From NCBI GenBank assembly GCA_903925685.1, contig CAIYGI010000061.1:1-32923 (forward strand): a stretch of DNA of 32,923 bases, given 5' to 3'. This stretch comes from an uncultured bacterium (GTDB lineage: Bacteria > Verrucomicrobiota > Kiritimatiellia > CAIKKV01 > CAIYGI01). The notes beneath the pieces were generated by a model that worked only from the letters and a program-made list of their open reading frames with translations, had not been told where the DNA came from and searched no databases. The position numbers were made by a program, and so were the translations under genes. Of the stretch, positions 7,326 through 15,459 are shown piece by piece; the first letter of the stretch is position 1, and the number at the start of each line of letters is the position of its first letter.

Positions 7326-7403
7326 CCTGCATCTGTCCAACACCCCGACACCGGAGTTGACCCGCGGGTGGAGGTGTGGGAGTATGCTTCAGATTTTGCG
7401 GCG

Positions 7404-7440
7404 GATGTCTCCCGGGATGGGAGGGGCAGGTGGCGACATC
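7404..7440 (+). promoter_or_regulatory. Nested stem-loop in the argF leader
   Basis: GATGTC (7404-7409) is complementary to GACATC (7435-7440), and inside it CTCCC (7409-7413) pairs with GGGAG (7419-7423); the two stems share one base. The structure ends 38 bases before the argF ATG. No T-tract follows, so it is not a classical terminator. A role in argF control is only a possibility; no ARG-box-like operator was recognised. Confidence 0.3.
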
Positions 7441-7478
7441 TGTCCGTCGTAAGCCGACCGCAGGACGAGACGAATAAT

Positions 7479-8474
7479 ATGGACACGAACGCGCTGGGTT
7501 TTCGCAGGGGCAAGAGTCTCCTGAAGCTTGACGATCTTAGCCACGACGAGTTGTTTCGCATGCTGCGCCTGGCGGCGGAACTCAAACTGCGCAAACGCGG
7601 CGGCGTGCGCGGCGACTACCTTTCGCGGCGCAATGTGGCGCTGATTTTTGAAAAGTCTTCCACTCGCACGCGCTGCGCCTTCACGGTCGCCGCCGCCGAC
7701 GAGGGCGGCATGGCCGAGTATCTCGATATCCACGATATCCACATCGGGCGCAAGGAGACGATTGCCGACACGGCGCGCGTACTGGGCCGCCTTTTCGACG
7801 GCATCGCCTTCCGCGGCTTCAAGCAGTCCACGGTCGAGGAGTTGGCGCGCTGCGCCGGTGTGCCGGTCTGGAATGCGCTGACCGACGACTGGCATCCCAC
7901 CCAGGCCCTGGCGGATCTGCTGACCGTTGAGGAGCACTTTGGACGCCTCGCCGGGCTGAAGTTCGTTTATGTCGGCGACGGCCGCAACAATGTGGTGAAC
8001 ACGCTGATGATCGGCTGCGCCATGACCGGCATGGAGATGGTGGATTGCTGTCCCTTGGAATTGGCGCCCGATCCGGAACTGTTGCATTACGCCCAAGGAC
8101 TGGCGCAAAAGGCCGGCGGCAGCGTTTCGGTGTGCCACGATCCGGTCAAGGCGGTCAAGGGCGCCAACATCGTCTATACCGACGTCTGGGTCTCGATGGG
8201 CGAGGAGGCCAAAACCGCCGAACGCCGGGCGTTGCTCAAACCCTATCAGGTGAACATGGCGCTGATGCGCGGCACCGGCCAGCTTGACCGCGGGCAGGCG
8301 GTTTTTCTTCACTGTCTGCCGGCCTTTCACAACACCGACACGGTTGCGACGCGCGAGAGCGGTCCGATGGAGGTGACGGACGATGTGTTCGAGGCGTCAT
8401 TTTCCAAGGTCTTCGATCAGGCCGAGAACCGCCTGCACACCATCAAGGCCGTGATGGTGGCATCGCTGGCCTGA
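7479..8474 (+). CDS. argF: Ornithine carbamoyltransferase
   Basis: A 331-residue cytosolic enzyme that joins carbamoyl phosphate and ornithine to give citrulline in arginine biosynthesis. The carbamoyl-phosphate site STRTR (about 61-65) follows FEK; DDWHPTQALAD and the ornithine-site HCLPAFH are intact, and VSMGEE matches the usual DxxxSMG loop. The open frame extends upstream, but ATG 7479, 10 bases after an AGGACGAG stretch, gives family length. The next gene, an aspartate carbamoyltransferase, starts 29 bases after its stop, so two enzymes competing for carbamoyl phosphate share a transcript. Confidence 0.95.
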   Translation: MDTNALGFRRGKSLLKLDDLSHDELFRMLRLAAELKLRKRGGVRGDYLSRRNVALIFEKSSTRTRCAFTVAAADEGGMAEYLDIHDIHIGRKETIADTARVLGRLFDGIAFRGFKQSTVEELARCAGVPVWNALTDDWHPTQALADLLTVEEHFGRLAGLKFVYVGDGRNNVVNTLMIGCAMTGMEMVDCCPLELAPDPELLHYAQGLAQKAGGSVSVCHDPVKAVKGANIVYTDVWVSMGEEAKTAERRALLKPYQVNMALMRGTGQLDRGQAVFLHCLPAFHNTDTVATRESGPMEVTDDVFEASFSKVFDQAENRLHTIKAVMVASLA

Positions 8475-8503
8475 GGCAACCTATGTCTAAGGAGAAAAAC
8501 CCC

Positions 8504-9586
8504 ATGCCAGTTGCCGATCCGCTGACCACCATCGGATGGGAAGTCTTCGAGGCGCTGGATTTAATCGGCAAAGCCGGATATCTGCAGGCGCCGGACGGAC
8601 GTGAGAACCATGTGCTGATCGCCCAGCAGTTCGGCCGTGCGCGGTTGGAGACGCTCGGAGCGCTGGCCACGCGCATCCGCCGGATTTCCAAGGACGAAGC
8701 GGGGCTCCGGTATCTGCGCGGCATCATGGCGGGGCGGCGAGCGATGCTCTACTTCACGCAGCCCAGCAGCCGAACCTTCCTCTCCTTTTGCGCCGCCTGC
8801 CAGATCCTCGGCATCGGTATCGGCGAGGTCCGCGACACCGCCACCTCCAGCGAGTTCAAGGGCGAAACGCAGGAAGACTCCGTGCGCACCTTCGGTTCCT
8901 ATTTCGACCTGATCGTCATGCGCAGCCAGTTGGGCGGACTGGCCGAACGCATGGCCTGGGTGTTGTCCAACACGACCCGTCCCGTGCCGATCATCAACGC
9001 CGGCTCGGGCAAGGACCAGCATCCTACACAAGCGCTGCTGGATATCTACACCCTGCAGCGCAGTTTCGAGACCCGCGGCGGAATTGACGGCAAGAGCGTA
9101 GCCTTCGTCGGCGACCTGGCGCGCGGACGTACGGTGCGTTCGCTGGCCTGGTTGCTGACGAATTACAGGGACATGACGCTCTATTTCGTGGCGCCGAAGG
9201 AACTGCAGATCGGCTCGGATATCCTGGAACTGCTGCATCGCCGCGGTGTGCGCACGGTCTTGGAGGAGGATTTTGCGGCGGTCATTCCCAAGGTGGACGC
9301 GATCTACATGACGCGCATTCAGGACGAATGGGACGCGCAGCCGGGCGCGAGCGGCAAACTCGGCACCGACCGCTACCATTTTACCGCCGCCCATCTGGCG
9401 CAACTCCGTCCCGACGCCATTTTGATGCATCCCTTTCCGCGGCGGCAGGAAATCGCCGTCGAAGTGGACCGCGACCCGCGCGCCATGTACTGGCGGCAGA
9501 TGCGCAACGGCATGTGGATTCGCTGCGCGCTGATCGCATCCATGTTCCGCCGCGAGCAAGAAATCGAGAGCTATGATGGGCGCTGA
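8504..9586 (+). CDS. pyrB: Aspartate carbamoyltransferase-like protein (PyrB family)
   Basis: A 360-residue member of the aspartate/ornithine carbamoyltransferase family. PSSRTFLSF (about 87-95) stands for the STRTR phosphate loop, KGETQEDSVRTF carries the 80s-loop Lys typical of aspartate enzymes, and GSGKDQHPTQALLD, GDLARGRTVRSL and MHPFPR match PyrB rather than ArgF. Expected reaction: carbamoyl phosphate plus aspartate to carbamoyl-aspartate in pyrimidine synthesis. The N-terminus is about 35 residues longer than the E. coli chain. ATG 8504 is preferred over ATG 8483 because AAGGAG lies nine bases before it. No regulatory PyrI gene follows. A relative acting on another amino acid cannot be excluded. 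Confidence 0.85.
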   Translation: MPVADPLTTIGWEVFEALDLIGKAGYLQAPDGRENHVLIAQQFGRARLETLGALATRIRRISKDEAGLRYLRGIMAGRRAMLYFTQPSSRTFLSFCAACQILGIGIGEVRDTATSSEFKGETQEDSVRTFGSYFDLIVMRSQLGGLAERMAWVLSNTTRPVPIINAGSGKDQHPTQALLDIYTLQRSFETRGGIDGKSVAFVGDLARGRTVRSLAWLLTNYRDMTLYFVAPKELQIGSDILELLHRRGVRTVLEEDFAAVIPKVDAIYMTRIQDEWDAQPGASGKLGTDRYHFTAAHLAQLRPDAILMHPFPRRQEIAVEVDRDPRAMYWRQMRNGMWIRCALIASMFRREQEIESYDGR

Positions 9587-11003
9587 TGATCCGGCTGCGC
9601 GGCCTGGGCGATTGCGCCGCGTGTGTGGCGCTGCGCTGCTGCCTGCGCTGCTGGCGATCGCGTCGGGACAGGCCACGCCGGTCGTTTCGCTGGACGCGCC
9701 GCAACGCGAGACCTGCAGCGATTTTGTGCAGCACGAAACCAGGAACGCGGAGGAGGTCCGGACGTTTTCGCCCTTCTTCAGCCAGGTGCGCAGCCGTCAA
9801 GATAACAAGGTCCGGACGGACGTGCTCTGGCCGTTGGTCTCGGTGCGCAGTTGGCACGAGGAATCGTCCGGCCGCATTCTTTCGACTTGGTATCGCGATA
9901 CGGACCGGAACGACCCCTCCGGCGCCTACCATGTCTGGGTGGTGCCTATTCTTGGCATCGGCCGCAGCACCAACGGCTTGAGCTATCTCGGCGTCTTTCC
10001 GATCGCGGGCACGCTCTACGACTTCATGGGCATGGACGAGTGGACTTTTACACTGTTTCCACTCTACTCCAAATCGCGCGTGGACGACACGGTCACCGAA
10101 TCCTGGCTCTGGCCGTTTTATTCGCACACCCATGGTCCGCGCATTGACCGCTTCCGGATCTGGCCTTTTTATGGACGTTCGAGCGAGCTGGCCGGTCAGG
10201 TGCGTCGGAAATTCGTGCTCTGGCCCATCTGGTCGCAGGTGCATTACGACTACCGCACTTCCAAGGGCGACGGTTATGTGTTGTTCCCGATCTACGGGCA
10301 CGTCAAGCTGACCGATCAGGAAACCTGGTGGGTGCTGCCGCCGTTCTTCCGGCACACGGTGGGTGCGCGCCAGTCGCTGAGTTATTATCCCTGGCCCTTT
10401 GTCCAGATTGCGCGCGGCGAAAACGAGAAGTTCTGGATCTGGCCGTTCTATGGGCACAAGCGTTACTCCGGCGACAGGTATCAGTTCATCCTCTGGCCGC
10501 TTTATGCGGACGCGACGCGGCCGTCCGGCGCCGACACCTGGCATCGCTGGCGGTTGTTTCCATTTTTATACTCGACGCGCGTGACCGCGCCCGCCAAGGC
10601 CGGCGCGCCGGAAACGGTCAAGGCCAGGGTCTTCAAATTCTGGCCGCTGGTCGAACGCGAGCGGCAGGGCCAGGACCTGCGCTGGCGTTTCCTGTCGCTC
10701 TGGCCGCTGAACGATCTGGGCCCCATCGAGCGCAATCTGGCGCCGCTTTGGACGCTGTTCGATTACCGGCGCGAGGCGGGCAACCGCGAGACCAGTTTGC
10801 TCTGGGGCCTTTACCGGTCGCGGGTGGCCGCGGACGGTGCCGCGCGCGGCCATCTGTTTCCATTATACGGCTGGACGCGCGACCCGGCCCGTTCGGAACA
10901 TACGTGGTCGCTGCTCGGCGGCCTGGCGGGTTATCGACAGCAAGGCGAAAAGCGGGTATATAGGGTTCTGTATTTTCTGAAGTGGGGGGATCGTCAACCT
11001 TGA
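9573..11003 (+). CDS. Exported protein with about 16 aromatic [LI]WPFY repeats
   Basis: A 476-residue protein of no family I can name. Residues 14-34 (RRVCGAALLPALLAIASGQA) look like a signal peptide. From about 85 to 433 a motif of the form hydrophobic-(W/F)-P-(F/L/I)-Y recurs every 16-21 residues: starts near 85, 142, 161, 179, 196, 216, 237, 255, 273, 289, 307, 328, 356, 376, 392, 410 and 428. Each is followed by a short polar, often RD/KS-rich turn. Regular 18-residue beta-type repeats suggest a propeller, solenoid or barrel in the periplasm or outer membrane. It overlaps the pyrB end by 14 bases and the mlaE start by four, so it may serve the MlaEFD transporter; inference only. Confidence 0.75.
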   Translation: MMGADDPAARPGRLRRVCGAALLPALLAIASGQATPVVSLDAPQRETCSDFVQHETRNAEEVRTFSPFFSQVRSRQDNKVRTDVLWPLVSVRSWHEESSGRILSTWYRDTDRNDPSGAYHVWVVPILGIGRSTNGLSYLGVFPIAGTLYDFMGMDEWTFTLFPLYSKSRVDDTVTESWLWPFYSHTHGPRIDRFRIWPFYGRSSELAGQVRRKFVLWPIWSQVHYDYRTSKGDGYVLFPIYGHVKLTDQETWWVLPPFFRHTVGARQSLSYYPWPFVQIARGENEKFWIWPFYGHKRYSGDRYQFILWPLYADATRPSGADTWHRWRLFPFLYSTRVTAPAKAGAPETVKARVFKFWPLVERERQGQDLRWRFLSLWPLNDLGPIERNLAPLWTLFDYRREAGNRETSLLWGLYRSRVAADGAARGHLFPLYGWTRDPARSEHTWSLLGGLAGYRQQGEKRVYRVLYFLKWGDRQP

Positions 11004-11812
11004 TTACCAGAGAACCAGTCTATCTTCCGCCCTCCGATACGCGGCGCGCCGAATTGGGACGCGACGTGCTGGATCTGGTCTGCAACTGCGGCCGGGCCTT
11101 GCTGCTGCTGTTCAGCGCCATCGGTTGCATGCGCTTTGCGTTCCAGGGCCGCTCGCGCGATCGGATCGTCGAACAGATGTTCTCCAGCGGGATTAAAAGT
11201 CTGGGCGTGATCAGCGTCGTTTCCATGTTTACGGGCATGATCCTGGCGCTGCAGACCGGCATCGAGCTGCGTAAGTTCGGCCAGGAGGTCAATATCGGCG
11301 CGGCCGTCATGGTCTCGCTGCTGCGCGAAATGGGTCCCTTCATGACCGCCCTGATTCTCGCGGCGAGCGTGGGATCCTCCTTTGCCGCCCAAATGGGCAC
11401 GATGACGGTTTCCGAGGAAATCCCGGCGCTAGAGTTGATGTCCATCGACCCCGTAAAATTCCTCGTCATGCCGAGGCTGATCGCCATGGCGATCATGACG
11501 CCGCTGCTTTCTTTCTACGGCTGCATTCTGGGCGTGATCGGCGGCGGCATCGTCGGCTCGACGCAATTGGGTGTTTCGTGGGTCTCCTACATCGACAATG
11601 CCATGCGCTTCGCGGAAAACAAGGATCTCTATGTGGGGCTGCTGAAGGCTTTTCTCTTCGGCGTCATCATCACGGTCGTTTCCTGTCACGAGGGCTTTGC
11701 GACGAGGCAGGGCGCCGTCGGCGTCGGGCGCGCGACGCGCCGCACGGTCATTCTCTCCTTTCTGCTGATTCTCGTGGTGGGCTACATCGTCACCAGGTTG
11801 TTCTACATATGA
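11000..11812 (+). CDS. mlaE: MlaE-type lipid ABC transporter permease
   Basis: A 270-residue integral membrane protein of the MlaE/TrnL family. It has five to six hydrophobic segments and conserved blocks FTGMILALQTGIELRKFG, REMGPFMTALILAASVGSSF and AAQMGTMTVSEEIPALELM, the signature of permeases that move phospholipid across the inner membrane. TTG 11000 is chosen because GGGGGAT lies nine bases upstream and it gives a four-base TTGA overlap with the preceding stop, like the ATGA overlaps at the next two junctions. GTG 10982 is the alternative. It forms a complex with the ATPase and the MCE protein encoded next. Confidence 0.92.
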   Translation: MITREPVYLPPSDTRRAELGRDVLDLVCNCGRALLLLFSAIGCMRFAFQGRSRDRIVEQMFSSGIKSLGVISVVSMFTGMILALQTGIELRKFGQEVNIGAAVMVSLLREMGPFMTALILAASVGSSFAAQMGTMTVSEEIPALELMSIDPVKFLVMPRLIAMAIMTPLLSFYGCILGVIGGGIVGSTQLGVSWVSYIDNAMRFAENKDLYVGLLKAFLFGVIITVVSCHEGFATRQGAVGVGRATRRTVILSFLLILVVGYIVTRLFYI

Positions 11813-12570
11813 TCCGCTTCGAAAATGTGCGCAAGTGGCTCGGCGATCACTGGGTTCTCGAAGACGTCAGCTTCGAAATCAAGCGCGGCGAGACTTTTTT
11901 CATCGTCGGCCCCTCCGGCACCGGCAAGAGCGTGACGCTGCAACACATGGTGCGGCTGCTGACGCCCGACGCCGGCCGCGTCATGATCGACAAGGATTGC
12001 GTGAGCACGGCCAGGGGGCGGAATTTGGAACGCATCCGCACCCGTTTCGGCATGCTTTTCCAGAGCGGCGCGCTGTTGGAATGGCTGACCGTGGCCGAAA
12101 ATGTGGCCCTGCCGCTGCTGGAACTGACGAAAATGGGGCATGAAGAGATCGATAAGCTGGTGCGGGAAAAACTGGAACTGGTGGGCTTGCCCGATGCCCT
12201 GGCCAAGTTCCCGGCGGAAATTTCCGGAGGCATGCGCAAGCGCGCGGCGCTGGCGCGGGCGATCATTCTCAAGCCGGAAATCATGCTCTACGACGAACCC
12301 ACCGCGGGCTTGGACCCGGTTTCGGCGCGCAAGATCGACGCGCTGATCGCCGATATGCAGGTCAAGACCGGGATCACGAGCGTCGTGGTCACCCACGATC
12401 TGCAGAGCGCGCTTTCGATCGGCACGCGCATTGCCATGCTGTTCGAAGGCCATGTGGTCGAGTTGTCCACGCCCGCCGACTTCGTGAAATCGCAGGTCGC
12501 CGAAGTGCGTGAATTCCTGGATTCGCAGTACATCACCCGCAGGGGCGATTGGGAGAAGAATACGCCATGA
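11809..12570 (+). CDS. mlaF: MlaF-type lipid ABC transporter ATPase
   Basis: A 253-residue ABC ATPase that would power the MlaE permease from the cytoplasmic face. Walker A is GPSGTGKS, the signature is ISGGMRKRAALARA, and Walker B is IMLYDEPTAGLD, followed by VVVTHD with the switch His. The signature ISGGMRKR is typical of the MlaF/MKL group. The ATG overlaps the mlaE stop (ATGA) and its own stop overlaps the next ATG in the same way, so mlaE, mlaF and mlaD are translationally coupled. MlaB-, MlaC- and MlaA-like genes are absent from the window. Confidence 0.95.
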   Translation: MIRFENVRKWLGDHWVLEDVSFEIKRGETFFIVGPSGTGKSVTLQHMVRLLTPDAGRVMIDKDCVSTARGRNLERIRTRFGMLFQSGALLEWLTVAENVALPLLELTKMGHEEIDKLVREKLELVGLPDALAKFPAEISGGMRKRAALARAIILKPEIMLYDEPTAGLDPVSARKIDALIADMQVKTGITSVVVTHDLQSALSIGTRIAMLFEGHVVELSTPADFVKSQVAEVREFLDSQYITRRGDWEKNTP

Positions 12571-13592
12571 ATACGAATAAACCGCCAAAACGCCACAACG
12601 ACATCTCCATGGAGTTGATTGTGGGAACGGTCGCGCTGATGATTCTGCTGGCCCTGTCCTATTTCACGATTGTGGTCGGCCGGCAGGCCTTCTGGCGCAA
12701 GACCTACCCGATGGAGGTCTATTTCGACAGCGTCATGGGCCTGCGCGACGGCGACAACGTGGTGATTCGCGGCATGACCGTCGGCAAGATCCGCAGTCTC
12801 ACGCTTGTCAGCAACGAGGTGCTGGTGGTCAGCGATCTTTCGCGGATGCTGCAGATGCACCGCGACTATCGCATTCGCGTCGTCTTCACCTCGGTGCTGG
12901 GCGGACGGCAACTCGAAGTAAACGAAGGCAGCGCCGACTCGCCTATGCTGCCGCCCGATGTCCGCTTGCATGGCAATCCGCCCGTCGATCTGATCGACGA
13001 CGCCGCCGCGATGATCAAGGACGTTCGCAGCATGCTCAACGAAGGCGGGGTTGCGAGCAACATTTCCGCCACGGCCGAGAATCTCAGCACAATTTCCGGC
13101 CGTCTCAAACGCGGCGAGGGCACCATCGGACGCCTGCTTGTCGAGGACGGCATGTACGTCCAGCTCCAGGGCACGATGGCGGAGGCGAGCAACGCGCTGG
13201 CCCAGATCAAAATCGTAACGACCAAGTTGAGCCAGGGCGAAGGCACGCTGGGTAAACTGCTGATGGACGACCGTGTCTACAAGGATATCGAGAAGACCAC
13301 GGCCAACTTGCGCGATTTGACCGATCGCGTCAACGCCGGCGAAGGCACGCTCGGCAAACTGCTGGCCAAGGACGACAGCATGTACGTGAACCTGCTGGCC
13401 ACCTCCCGCTCGCTTTCCAACATCACCGCCCGCGTCGAAAACGGCGACGGACTGCTGGGCAAACTGATCAGCGACGAAACGCTGGCCACCAATGTGCAGC
13501 AGACCATCCAGGAACTGCGCGCCGCGATCGACGATTTCCGCGAGACCTCGCCGGTGGTTTCCTTCTCCAGTTTCCTGTTCGGCACCTTCTAG
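12567..13592 (+). CDS. mlaD: MCE-domain lipid-binding protein (MlaD-type) with four GEGTLGKLL repeats
   Basis: A 341-residue protein with one N-terminal membrane helix (about 16-38) and an MCE domain (about 46-125: YFDSVMGLRDGDNVVIRGM, then VGKIRSL and VLGGRQLEV). After it come four copies of G(E/D)GxxG(K/R)L(L/I) at about 183, 224, 258 and 293, each followed by 25-30 predicted helical residues. This tail is common in MCE proteins outside Proteobacteria. MCE rings hold lipid in the periplasm and pass it to or from the permease; the helical tail may form a longer tunnel or bridge. A TTG at 12549 extends the frame, but ATG 12567 keeps the ATGA overlap. Confidence 0.9.
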   Translation: MNTNKPPKRHNDISMELIVGTVALMILLALSYFTIVVGRQAFWRKTYPMEVYFDSVMGLRDGDNVVIRGMTVGKIRSLTLVSNEVLVVSDLSRMLQMHRDYRIRVVFTSVLGGRQLEVNEGSADSPMLPPDVRLHGNPPVDLIDDAAAMIKDVRSMLNEGGVASNISATAENLSTISGRLKRGEGTIGRLLVEDGMYVQLQGTMAEASNALAQIKIVTTKLSQGEGTLGKLLMDDRVYKDIEKTTANLRDLTDRVNAGEGTLGKLLAKDDSMYVNLLATSRSLSNITARVENGDGLLGKLISDETLATNVQQTIQELRAAIDDFRETSPVVSFSSFLFGTF

Positions 13593-14933: not shown

Positions 14934-15383
14934 CTAGTTGGTCAGCTTGATCAGGCCGATAATCACGTTAGCGCAGATGGCCGGGTCTTCGTGCTCGACC
15001 CCCTTCTTGAACGTCTCGTAGTTGGCATTGGGTAGCCGGTTCAACGCCTGCAACCGCTTCACGTAGCGGTGATCCTGCGGCCATTCTTTCAACCCGCGCA
15101 GGCGTAGGAAATCGCGGTAGTCGGTGAGCAATTCTTCCAAACTGGCGCGGGCAACGTTGGTCAATTTGATTTCAGACTCCTTAGATGTTCCCGAGGCCAT
15201 GCTCCCCTCGACGATGTTTTGCTTCCCGGAACGCGCGGCTTGCACCATTTGGCCGTGCGTGCGGTCGCGCTGGTCGAAGAAGCGGTCACAGAACCGCACC
15301 GTGGCATCGAAGACAATCTGGGCCTTTTGGAAAGAAAGAAGGTCTTGGTAACCGCCGTGCGGGGGAATGAAGCCTGCGCTCAT
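14934..15383 (-). CDS. Four-helix-bundle (S23 / 23S rRNA intervening-sequence type) protein, truncated
   Basis: A 149-residue protein of the four-helix-bundle family, named for proteins encoded in 23S rRNA intervening sequences but common elsewhere. Landmarks are YQDLLSFQKAQIVFDATVRF, the core QAARSGKQNIVEGS, and ESEIKLTNVARASLEELL with DYRDFLRLRGL. The family is thought to form small helical oligomers; its role is unknown. ATG 15383 follows GGAGG at seven bases, so the upstream codons are not used. The frame stops at an amber codon within a conserved helix. The gene is isolated between pdxA and lpxB with repeats on both sides, as expected for a mobile or dispersed family member. Confidence 0.8.
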   Translation of the reverse strand: MSAGFIPPHGGYQDLLSFQKAQIVFDATVRFCDRFFDQRDRTHGQMVQAARSGKQNIVEGSMASGTSKESEIKLTNVARASLEELLTDYRDFLRLRGLKEWPQDHRYVKRLQALNRLPNANYETFKKGVEHEDPAICANVIIGLIKLTN

Positions 15384-15400
15384 GTGGCGACCTCCGCGGA

Positions 15401-15459
15401 AGGGACGGAAAGGACACAAGGGACATAAGGTTTATGTCCTCTTTGTCGCTTTTGTCCCT
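15401..15459. repeat. Large imperfect palindrome upstream of the four-helix-bundle gene
   Basis: The core GGACATAA (15421-15428) / TTATGTCC (15432-15439) has a 3-base loop. Outside it, ACAAGG pairs imperfectly with CTTTGT, and AGGGAC (15401-15406) is complementary to GTCCCT (15454-15459). Both arms are themselves period-7-like. It lies immediately upstream of the gene's ribosome site on the minus strand, so it may fold in the leader or be part of the repeat family. Confidence 0.55.

Follow-up and report, generated by a model that had tools for sequence, protein, structure and literature searches.

How MlaEFD reaches the outer membrane in PVC bacteria is a question raised by earlier work: most diderms lack MlaABC and encode MlaEFD without MlaA and MlaC, and the MlaD proteins of PVC bacteria also lack the C-terminal outer-membrane β-barrel that the MlaD of Veillonella carries (PMC10665443). 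The stretch of DNA analysed here (the window, 32,923 nucleotides of contig CAIYGI010000061.1, assembly GCA_903925685.1, from an uncultured bacterium of the class Kiritimatiellia, phylum Verrucomicrobiota) contains the parts of an MCE ABC transporter, namely the MlaE permease, a MlaD with its MCE domain and the adjacent ABC ATPase, and a gene for an aromatic repeat protein, designated RP below, directly precedes them (Table 1). RP is probably the missing envelope-side partner of MlaEFD in bacteria without MlaA and MlaC. Our main reading, to which we assign a probability of roughly 55%, is that a lipid transport system encoded by four genes, RP-MlaE-MlaF-MlaD, has RP as its dedicated envelope component, which receives the far end of MlaD. 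Together with a matching signature on MlaD, RP offers a concrete and conserved candidate for the outer-membrane side in PVC bacteria, which makes the question directly testable.

Table 1. Features of the four-gene unit, in positions of the window.
Feature	Position	Strand	Remarks
RP, secreted aromatic repeat protein (β-hairpin repeats predicted)	9573..11003	+	476 aa; without Pfam, NCBIfam or PDB match
RP Sec-type signal peptide	9573..9674	+	cleavage at about GQA34/T35, by eye
RP repeats, about 21 of about 18 residues	9756..10988	+	x(2)-R-R-x-F-x-[LV]-[WF]-P-[LF]-[YW]-[GS]-R-x-R
mlaE permease	11000..11812	+	PF02405 3.3e-70, TIGR00056; TTG start
mlaF ATPase	11809..12570	+	ABC_tran 1.7e-30; Pfam/NCBIfam
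mlaD, long form, 341 aa	12567..13592	+	PF02470 6.2e-11
MlaD C-terminal tail RETSPVVSFSSFLFGTF	13539..13589	+	signature of RP-bearing systems

A preliminary description of the window had presented RP as a protein with a signal peptide and no nameable family, encoded by a gene that overlaps mlaE, and all of this holds. The N-terminal signal peptide is of the Sec type, with a hydrophobic stretch at about residues 17-31 and GQA followed by T at about position 34, as judged by eye. The stop codon of RP (TGA, 11001-11003) overlaps the start of mlaE (TTG, 11000-11002), four nucleotides (TTGA) being shared, and further ATGA overlaps of the same length are present between mlaE and mlaF (11809-11812) and between mlaF and mlaD (12567-12570). 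Since three junctions overlap by four nucleotides, RP-mlaE-mlaF-mlaD look like one translationally coupled unit. At its other end, the gene has its start codon within the 3′ end of a carbamoyltransferase-like ORF (8483-9586). A tandem pair of such ORFs (7368-9586) lies immediately 5′ of RP, and the same order is found at another locus, L063. Most RP homologues have a type-I signal peptide, and clear lipoboxes are seen in three of the loci (L012, L028, L056). Signal peptides and occasional lipoboxes fit a location at the periplasmic face of a membrane, and the RP of the window would be located there too.

Homologues of RP (E ≤ 0.001) were found in 54 of 58 related genomes, the window's own included, with about 28-48% identity, mostly across nearly the full mature length; the genome of the window holds exactly one copy. 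Of 289 genomes of the phylum searched with a profile, 138 have an RP match: 92 of the 97 belonging to the class and 46 outside it. About 35 of the latter are strong, the weak rest being mainly pieces of longer proteins with the same repeat. The named relatives obtained by a contig scan with a four-row RP alignment are mainly Kiritimatiellia/Kiritimatiellae MAGs; the scan gave no relatives with the single RP protein as a query, and no match to RP was found in plasmids. Searches of Pfam, NCBIfam and the PDB sequences were empty for RP itself, and a 26-member RP alignment showed nothing consistent across its members in the family libraries. Three weak Pfam matches, each confined to one member, were treated as chance. 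RP defines a protein family and a repeat architecture that are absent from Pfam and NCBIfam and nearly universal in one bacterial class. While the transporter core is known, the added parts, namely the RP family, the architecture of its repeats and the tail signature of MlaD, were found neither in the libraries nor in the literature searched, a search that had subscription papers and bioRxiv preprints outside its scope.

The coupling of the RP gene with MlaEFD is well supported. MlaE is present in 54 of the 58 relatives, and the four genomes without it are the same four that have no RP. At 52 of the 57 RP places (51 of 54 genomes) mlaE follows directly downstream on the same strand, the median distance between the two (RP match end to MlaE domain start) being 183 nt. 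Among the five other places, one reaches the contig end (G014), two are split-gene fragments in incomplete assemblies (G023, G056), and two, both in family f12, are truly separate (G022 and G049). Outside the class, RP adjoins mlaE in all 20 places for which MlaE coordinates are listed, and the loci examined there have the gene order RP-mlaE-mlaF-mlaD. The pair is kept across about 40 genera; RP-MlaEFD spans the Kiritimatiellia and reaches other Verrucomicrobiota families, MlaA and MlaC being absent in most carriers. Of the MlaE copies in the 58 relatives, half are not linked to RP. On the MlaE tree, the copies linked to RP fall into one or two groups (two label changes), apart from the other MlaEs, and may conceivably share one origin. 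Homologues unlinked to mla genes had been named beforehand as evidence that would count against a role with the transporter; the homologues turned out to be overwhelmingly mla-linked. RP is unlinked in family f12 plus a few other cases, and the objection that these refute the coupling was ruled out, as the MlaD tail is kept in f12 and in the other unlinked cases. At two f12 loci (L056:4432-5943, minus strand, and L055:2283-4073) the RP gene lies apart from mlaEFD; the RP of the former is predicted to be a lipoprotein (LFAGC), and its gene neighbours a glmM-like one. A glmM-like gene is also found upstream of RP in L014/L034.

The genome of the window, which is 96% complete, encodes one MlaE, one MCE protein and LptD, the last being consistent with an LPS-bearing outer membrane. 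The lack of MlaA and MlaC, remarked on earlier for the window, extends to this whole genome: it contains neither MlaA (PF04333; control genomes positive) nor MlaC (PF05494; controls E. coli and Caulobacter positive). Among the 58 relatives, MlaA occurs in six and MlaC in five. Four genomes (G012, G029, G030, G042) have RP with MlaE, plus MlaA and MlaC elsewhere, and because the two lie at different places, RP-mlaE and MlaA/MlaC are separate systems. These four genomes also rule out that RP replaces MlaA/MlaC one for one. It had been suggested that RP could be a β-rich partner which takes over the job of one of the two; a β-rich partner is supported by the all-β predicted fold and by the linkage to mla genes, and the one-for-one takeover is not. 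On three contigs (G029:C71, G030:C124, G043:C20) MlaA adjoins MlaC and MlaE has no match, and in G043 the whole genome is without an MlaE match. L063 harbours a second, divergent MlaE-ATPase-MCE set 5′ of its RP set (L063:1883-5263), followed by a lipobox protein; the MlaD of this second set is tail-less.

The repeats of RP are centred on [LV][WF]P[LF][YW], with a spacing of mainly 16-21 residues and a variable insertion near residue 340, in agreement with the W-P-F-Y type repeats at steady 16-21 residue intervals first described. A relaxed motif, [LIVMFWY][WFLVI][PG][LIFPVA][WFYLIV], has 16 matches in RP, one of them within the signal peptide. Shuffling of the mature protein yielded a mean of 0.93 matches and a maximum of 6 in 5000 shuffles, which rules out that the motif arises by chance. 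Since several repeats have lost the proline, the count made with family conservation is higher, about 21. A profile built from 22 repeat positions in 26 sequences gives the consensus R R x F x L W P L Y G R x R, with a charged turn on either side. The positions -2, -1, +1 and +2 around the proline are 86-96% hydrophobic, and the repeat ends are about 40-57% charged. In the alignment of 26 members, invariant residues are present in nearly all repeats.

AlphaFold2 models, each based on nine sequences, were obtained for the RP of the window (mean pLDDT 59.7, pTM 0.46) and for the mature homologue L033 (pLDDT 73.2, pTM 0.48). Both are meanders of about 42 short antiparallel strands of about six residues, in which each repeat supplies a pair of strands, a hairpin that turns at W-P; the global arrangement is of low confidence. 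Because the two models agree, a hairpin-repeat β-meander is a credible local fold for RP. A fold unsuited to the envelope had been named as another point that would count against the proposed role; the predicted all-β meander is compatible with that location. Foldseek returned no convincing global match for the models. The first one matched the CPAP/SAS-4 TCP domain, a free-standing β-meander (probability 1.00, TM 0.40-0.50 by target length), and also OspA; the second, that of L033, matched OspA and propellers at low TM, and the TCP match is missing from its top 50. The TCP (G-box) domain and the single-layer sheet of OspA resemble the predicted RP in being meanders of short antiparallel strands made of hairpin repeats, but they belong to a different cell compartment and no sequence relationship is shown. 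Matches to megalin, teneurin and WD40 proteins (TM 0.2 or less) were rejected as repeat-β look-alikes, and a viral library search gave nothing informative.

The same repeats could be read as a large outer-membrane β-barrel of about 22 strands, one per 18-residue repeat, forming the channel of the system. The near-invariant proline would then fall in mid-strand, whereas both AlphaFold2 models place a turn at W-P, and their strands are some six residues long. It is true that each repeat has a hydrophobic core of about eight residues flanked by arginine, charged residues and aromatics, and that an aromatic residue is often found close to the C-terminus of RP proteins (LKF or FRW before the stop codon); however, no alternating hydrophobicity is seen in the repeat profile (22 positions, 26 sequences), all four positions next to the proline being hydrophobic. 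A precedent exists in the barrel that Veillonella MlaD carries fused to it, although some RP members carry lipoboxes and the matches of RP to VDAC are weak (Foldseek probability 0.14-0.20). The conserved proline and the lack of alternation disfavour a barrel of this kind, and we consider it unlikely.

The MlaD of the window comprises a membrane anchor, an MCE domain, four helical repeats and a tail. The helical repeats begin with G[ED]G[TL][IL]G[KR]L[LI] (codons at 13113, 13236, 13338 and 13443), and they are followed at the very C-terminus by RETSPVVSFSSFLFGTF. All MlaDs inspected from RP-bearing systems have a similar end: in the class, the tails read RET[AST]PITTFTSIFFGAF, in families such as f44 they read [DS][QS]GPITAVGVVANALF, and for the loci L031-L038, L051, L060, L063, L067, L068, L074-L093 and L114-L124 the tail is written RETxPITTFTSIFFGAF, in each case up to the stop codon. 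Under a strict rule (F or L as the final residue, and the last 13 residues free of charged ones), 36 of 37 MlaDs from RP-bearing genomes pass, namely 30 of the 31 that are RP-partnered and six more; the 37th, which fails the rule, plainly has the same tail. None of the 36 other MlaDs of the phylum has the hydrophobic tail, second MlaDs of RP-bearing genomes included, and in genomes with two MlaDs it is present in one only (e.g., in the two sets of L063). The 36 include seven genomes (G022, G049, G151, G154, G163, G189, G246) that keep the tail in one MlaD, with RP not found beside the mla genes. Three genomes of the class (G136, G167, G279) have MlaE, no RP, and a sole MlaD that is tail-less. 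In G164 the tail is present and RP was not found; the contig ends about 1.4 kb away from its MlaD, which leaves too little room upstream for full mlaF, mlaE and RP, so the absence of RP is probably due to a contig break. By these comparisons the tail goes with RP and is a strong correlate of it, a correlation that rests on few independent events because the RP-linked systems are closely related (one or two MlaE clades). The window itself bears the whole signature of the family: a signal peptide, about 21 repeats, mlaE directly downstream, and the hydrophobic C-terminal tail of MlaD.

Compared with the canonical Mla system of the E. coli type (MlaA-MlaC-MlaFEDB), with which it shares MlaE, MlaF and MlaD homologues, the genome of the window lacks MlaA and MlaC, has a long MlaD and adds RP. 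MlaEFD of Veillonella parvula also has three components without MlaA/MlaC, a long MlaD and a β-rich element on the outer-membrane side (PMC10665443). There, however, the β part is fused to MlaD as a 10-stranded barrel, whereas RP is secreted as a protein in its own right, is much longer, and consists of repeats with another predicted fold. While the MlaD of V. parvula ends in this barrel, that of the window ends in a short hydrophobic tail; no C-terminal β-barrel was found on it, as the protein stops about 50 residues past the start of the last helical repeat, and since 17 of these residues are tail, the end is too short for ten strands. In the Pqi system, the needle formed by PqiB meets the lipoprotein PqiC with its C-terminus at the outer membrane (PMC10897342), and RP would be similar in being an operon-encoded secreted partner at the C-terminal end of an MCE needle. 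PqiC is a lipoprotein of about 187 residues, belongs to the ABC auxiliary (DUF330) family and forms an octameric toroid, whereas RP has predicted β-hairpin repeats, and Pfam searches found no DUF330 domain in RP or its homologues. In mycobacterial Mce1, the helical repeats build a periplasmic needle, and close to the outer membrane the C-termini make a portal barrel of six strands (PMC9882608); an MCE protein with helical repeats in a stack and a distal C-terminal β-strand would be common to both systems. Mce1 is heterohexameric, unlike the RP system. To our knowledge, it has no RP homologue. PqiC, or the β-barrel fused to Veillonella MlaD, is a closer analogue of RP than MlaA/MlaC.

In a four-gene system with RP as its envelope component, MlaE and MlaF would form the inner-membrane ABC transporter, and a MlaD hexamer, with its MCE ring and stacked helical repeats, would project a tunnel into the periplasm. 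RP would leave via Sec and then remain on the side of the periplasm or outer membrane; there its long β-meander with a hydrophobic edge would take up the conserved hydrophobic MlaD tails and join the tunnel to the outer membrane. By analogy with Mce1, Pqi and Veillonella, MlaD would be the needle, its tails a distal ring of strands, and RP the receiver, filling the function given elsewhere to MlaA/MlaC, PqiC or a barrel fused to MlaD; a contact between RP and MlaD, a place on the outer-membrane side and a handling of lipid by RP are inferred. A more specific version, in which the tails of six MlaD subunits pair with RP as β-strands and so plug into it, while the hydrophobic W-P edge conducts lipid between the MlaD tunnel and the outer membrane, is tentative, with a rather low chance of being right. 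If true, a single-layer hairpin-repeat receptor or conduit would be a lipid-transfer architecture unlike MlaA/C, PqiC, LptA and AsmA-type grooves.

RP might instead be a soluble periplasmic lipid chaperone or shuttle, acting in the role of MlaC between the outer membrane and MlaD. A long repeat meander without a predicted closed lipid cavity hardly fits this role, even though RP is secreted, usually lacks a lipobox, has a hydrophobic face and edge, and occurs where MlaC is absent. Moreover, some members are lipoproteins, and a tunnel, as the long MlaD with its helical repeats suggests, would leave no need for a shuttle. We find such a role rather improbable.

With about 42 strands at 4.8 Å, RP would measure about 200 Å if fully extended, and it could be a periplasm-spanning β-blade on which lipids slide; alternatively, it could be a stave sheath around the MlaD needle. 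A hydrophobic W-P edge opposite a charged one would fit these arrangements, and the CPAP/SAS-4 TCP domain is an existing free-standing meander of about 20 strands; the low pTM and the presence of propellers among the top Foldseek matches of the second model speak against them and leave them quite doubtful. It is highly improbable that RP is an envelope protein of unrelated function merely travelling with the mlaEFD operon, since the pair is kept in about 40 genera, is jointly absent, has overlapping reading frames and shows a tail correlate that holds even where RP and mla genes are unlinked, although same-repeat proteins away from mla genes (L057, L058, L059) and the glmM-like neighbour of the f12 RP would be in line with it.

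The same-repeat proteins encoded away from mla are long, LWPLY-type proteins of 863-1291 aa (L057:1161-4562; L058:2955-5546, minus strand; L059:2809-6684, minus strand), and that of L058 has a lipobox (LLATGC). Because such proteins exist, the LWPLY-type repeat is not specific to mla; it is a wider envelope module in the phylum. Elsewhere in the window, a minus-strand ORF (14934-15419) looks by eye like the four-helix-bundle / 23S rRNA intervening-sequence proteins.
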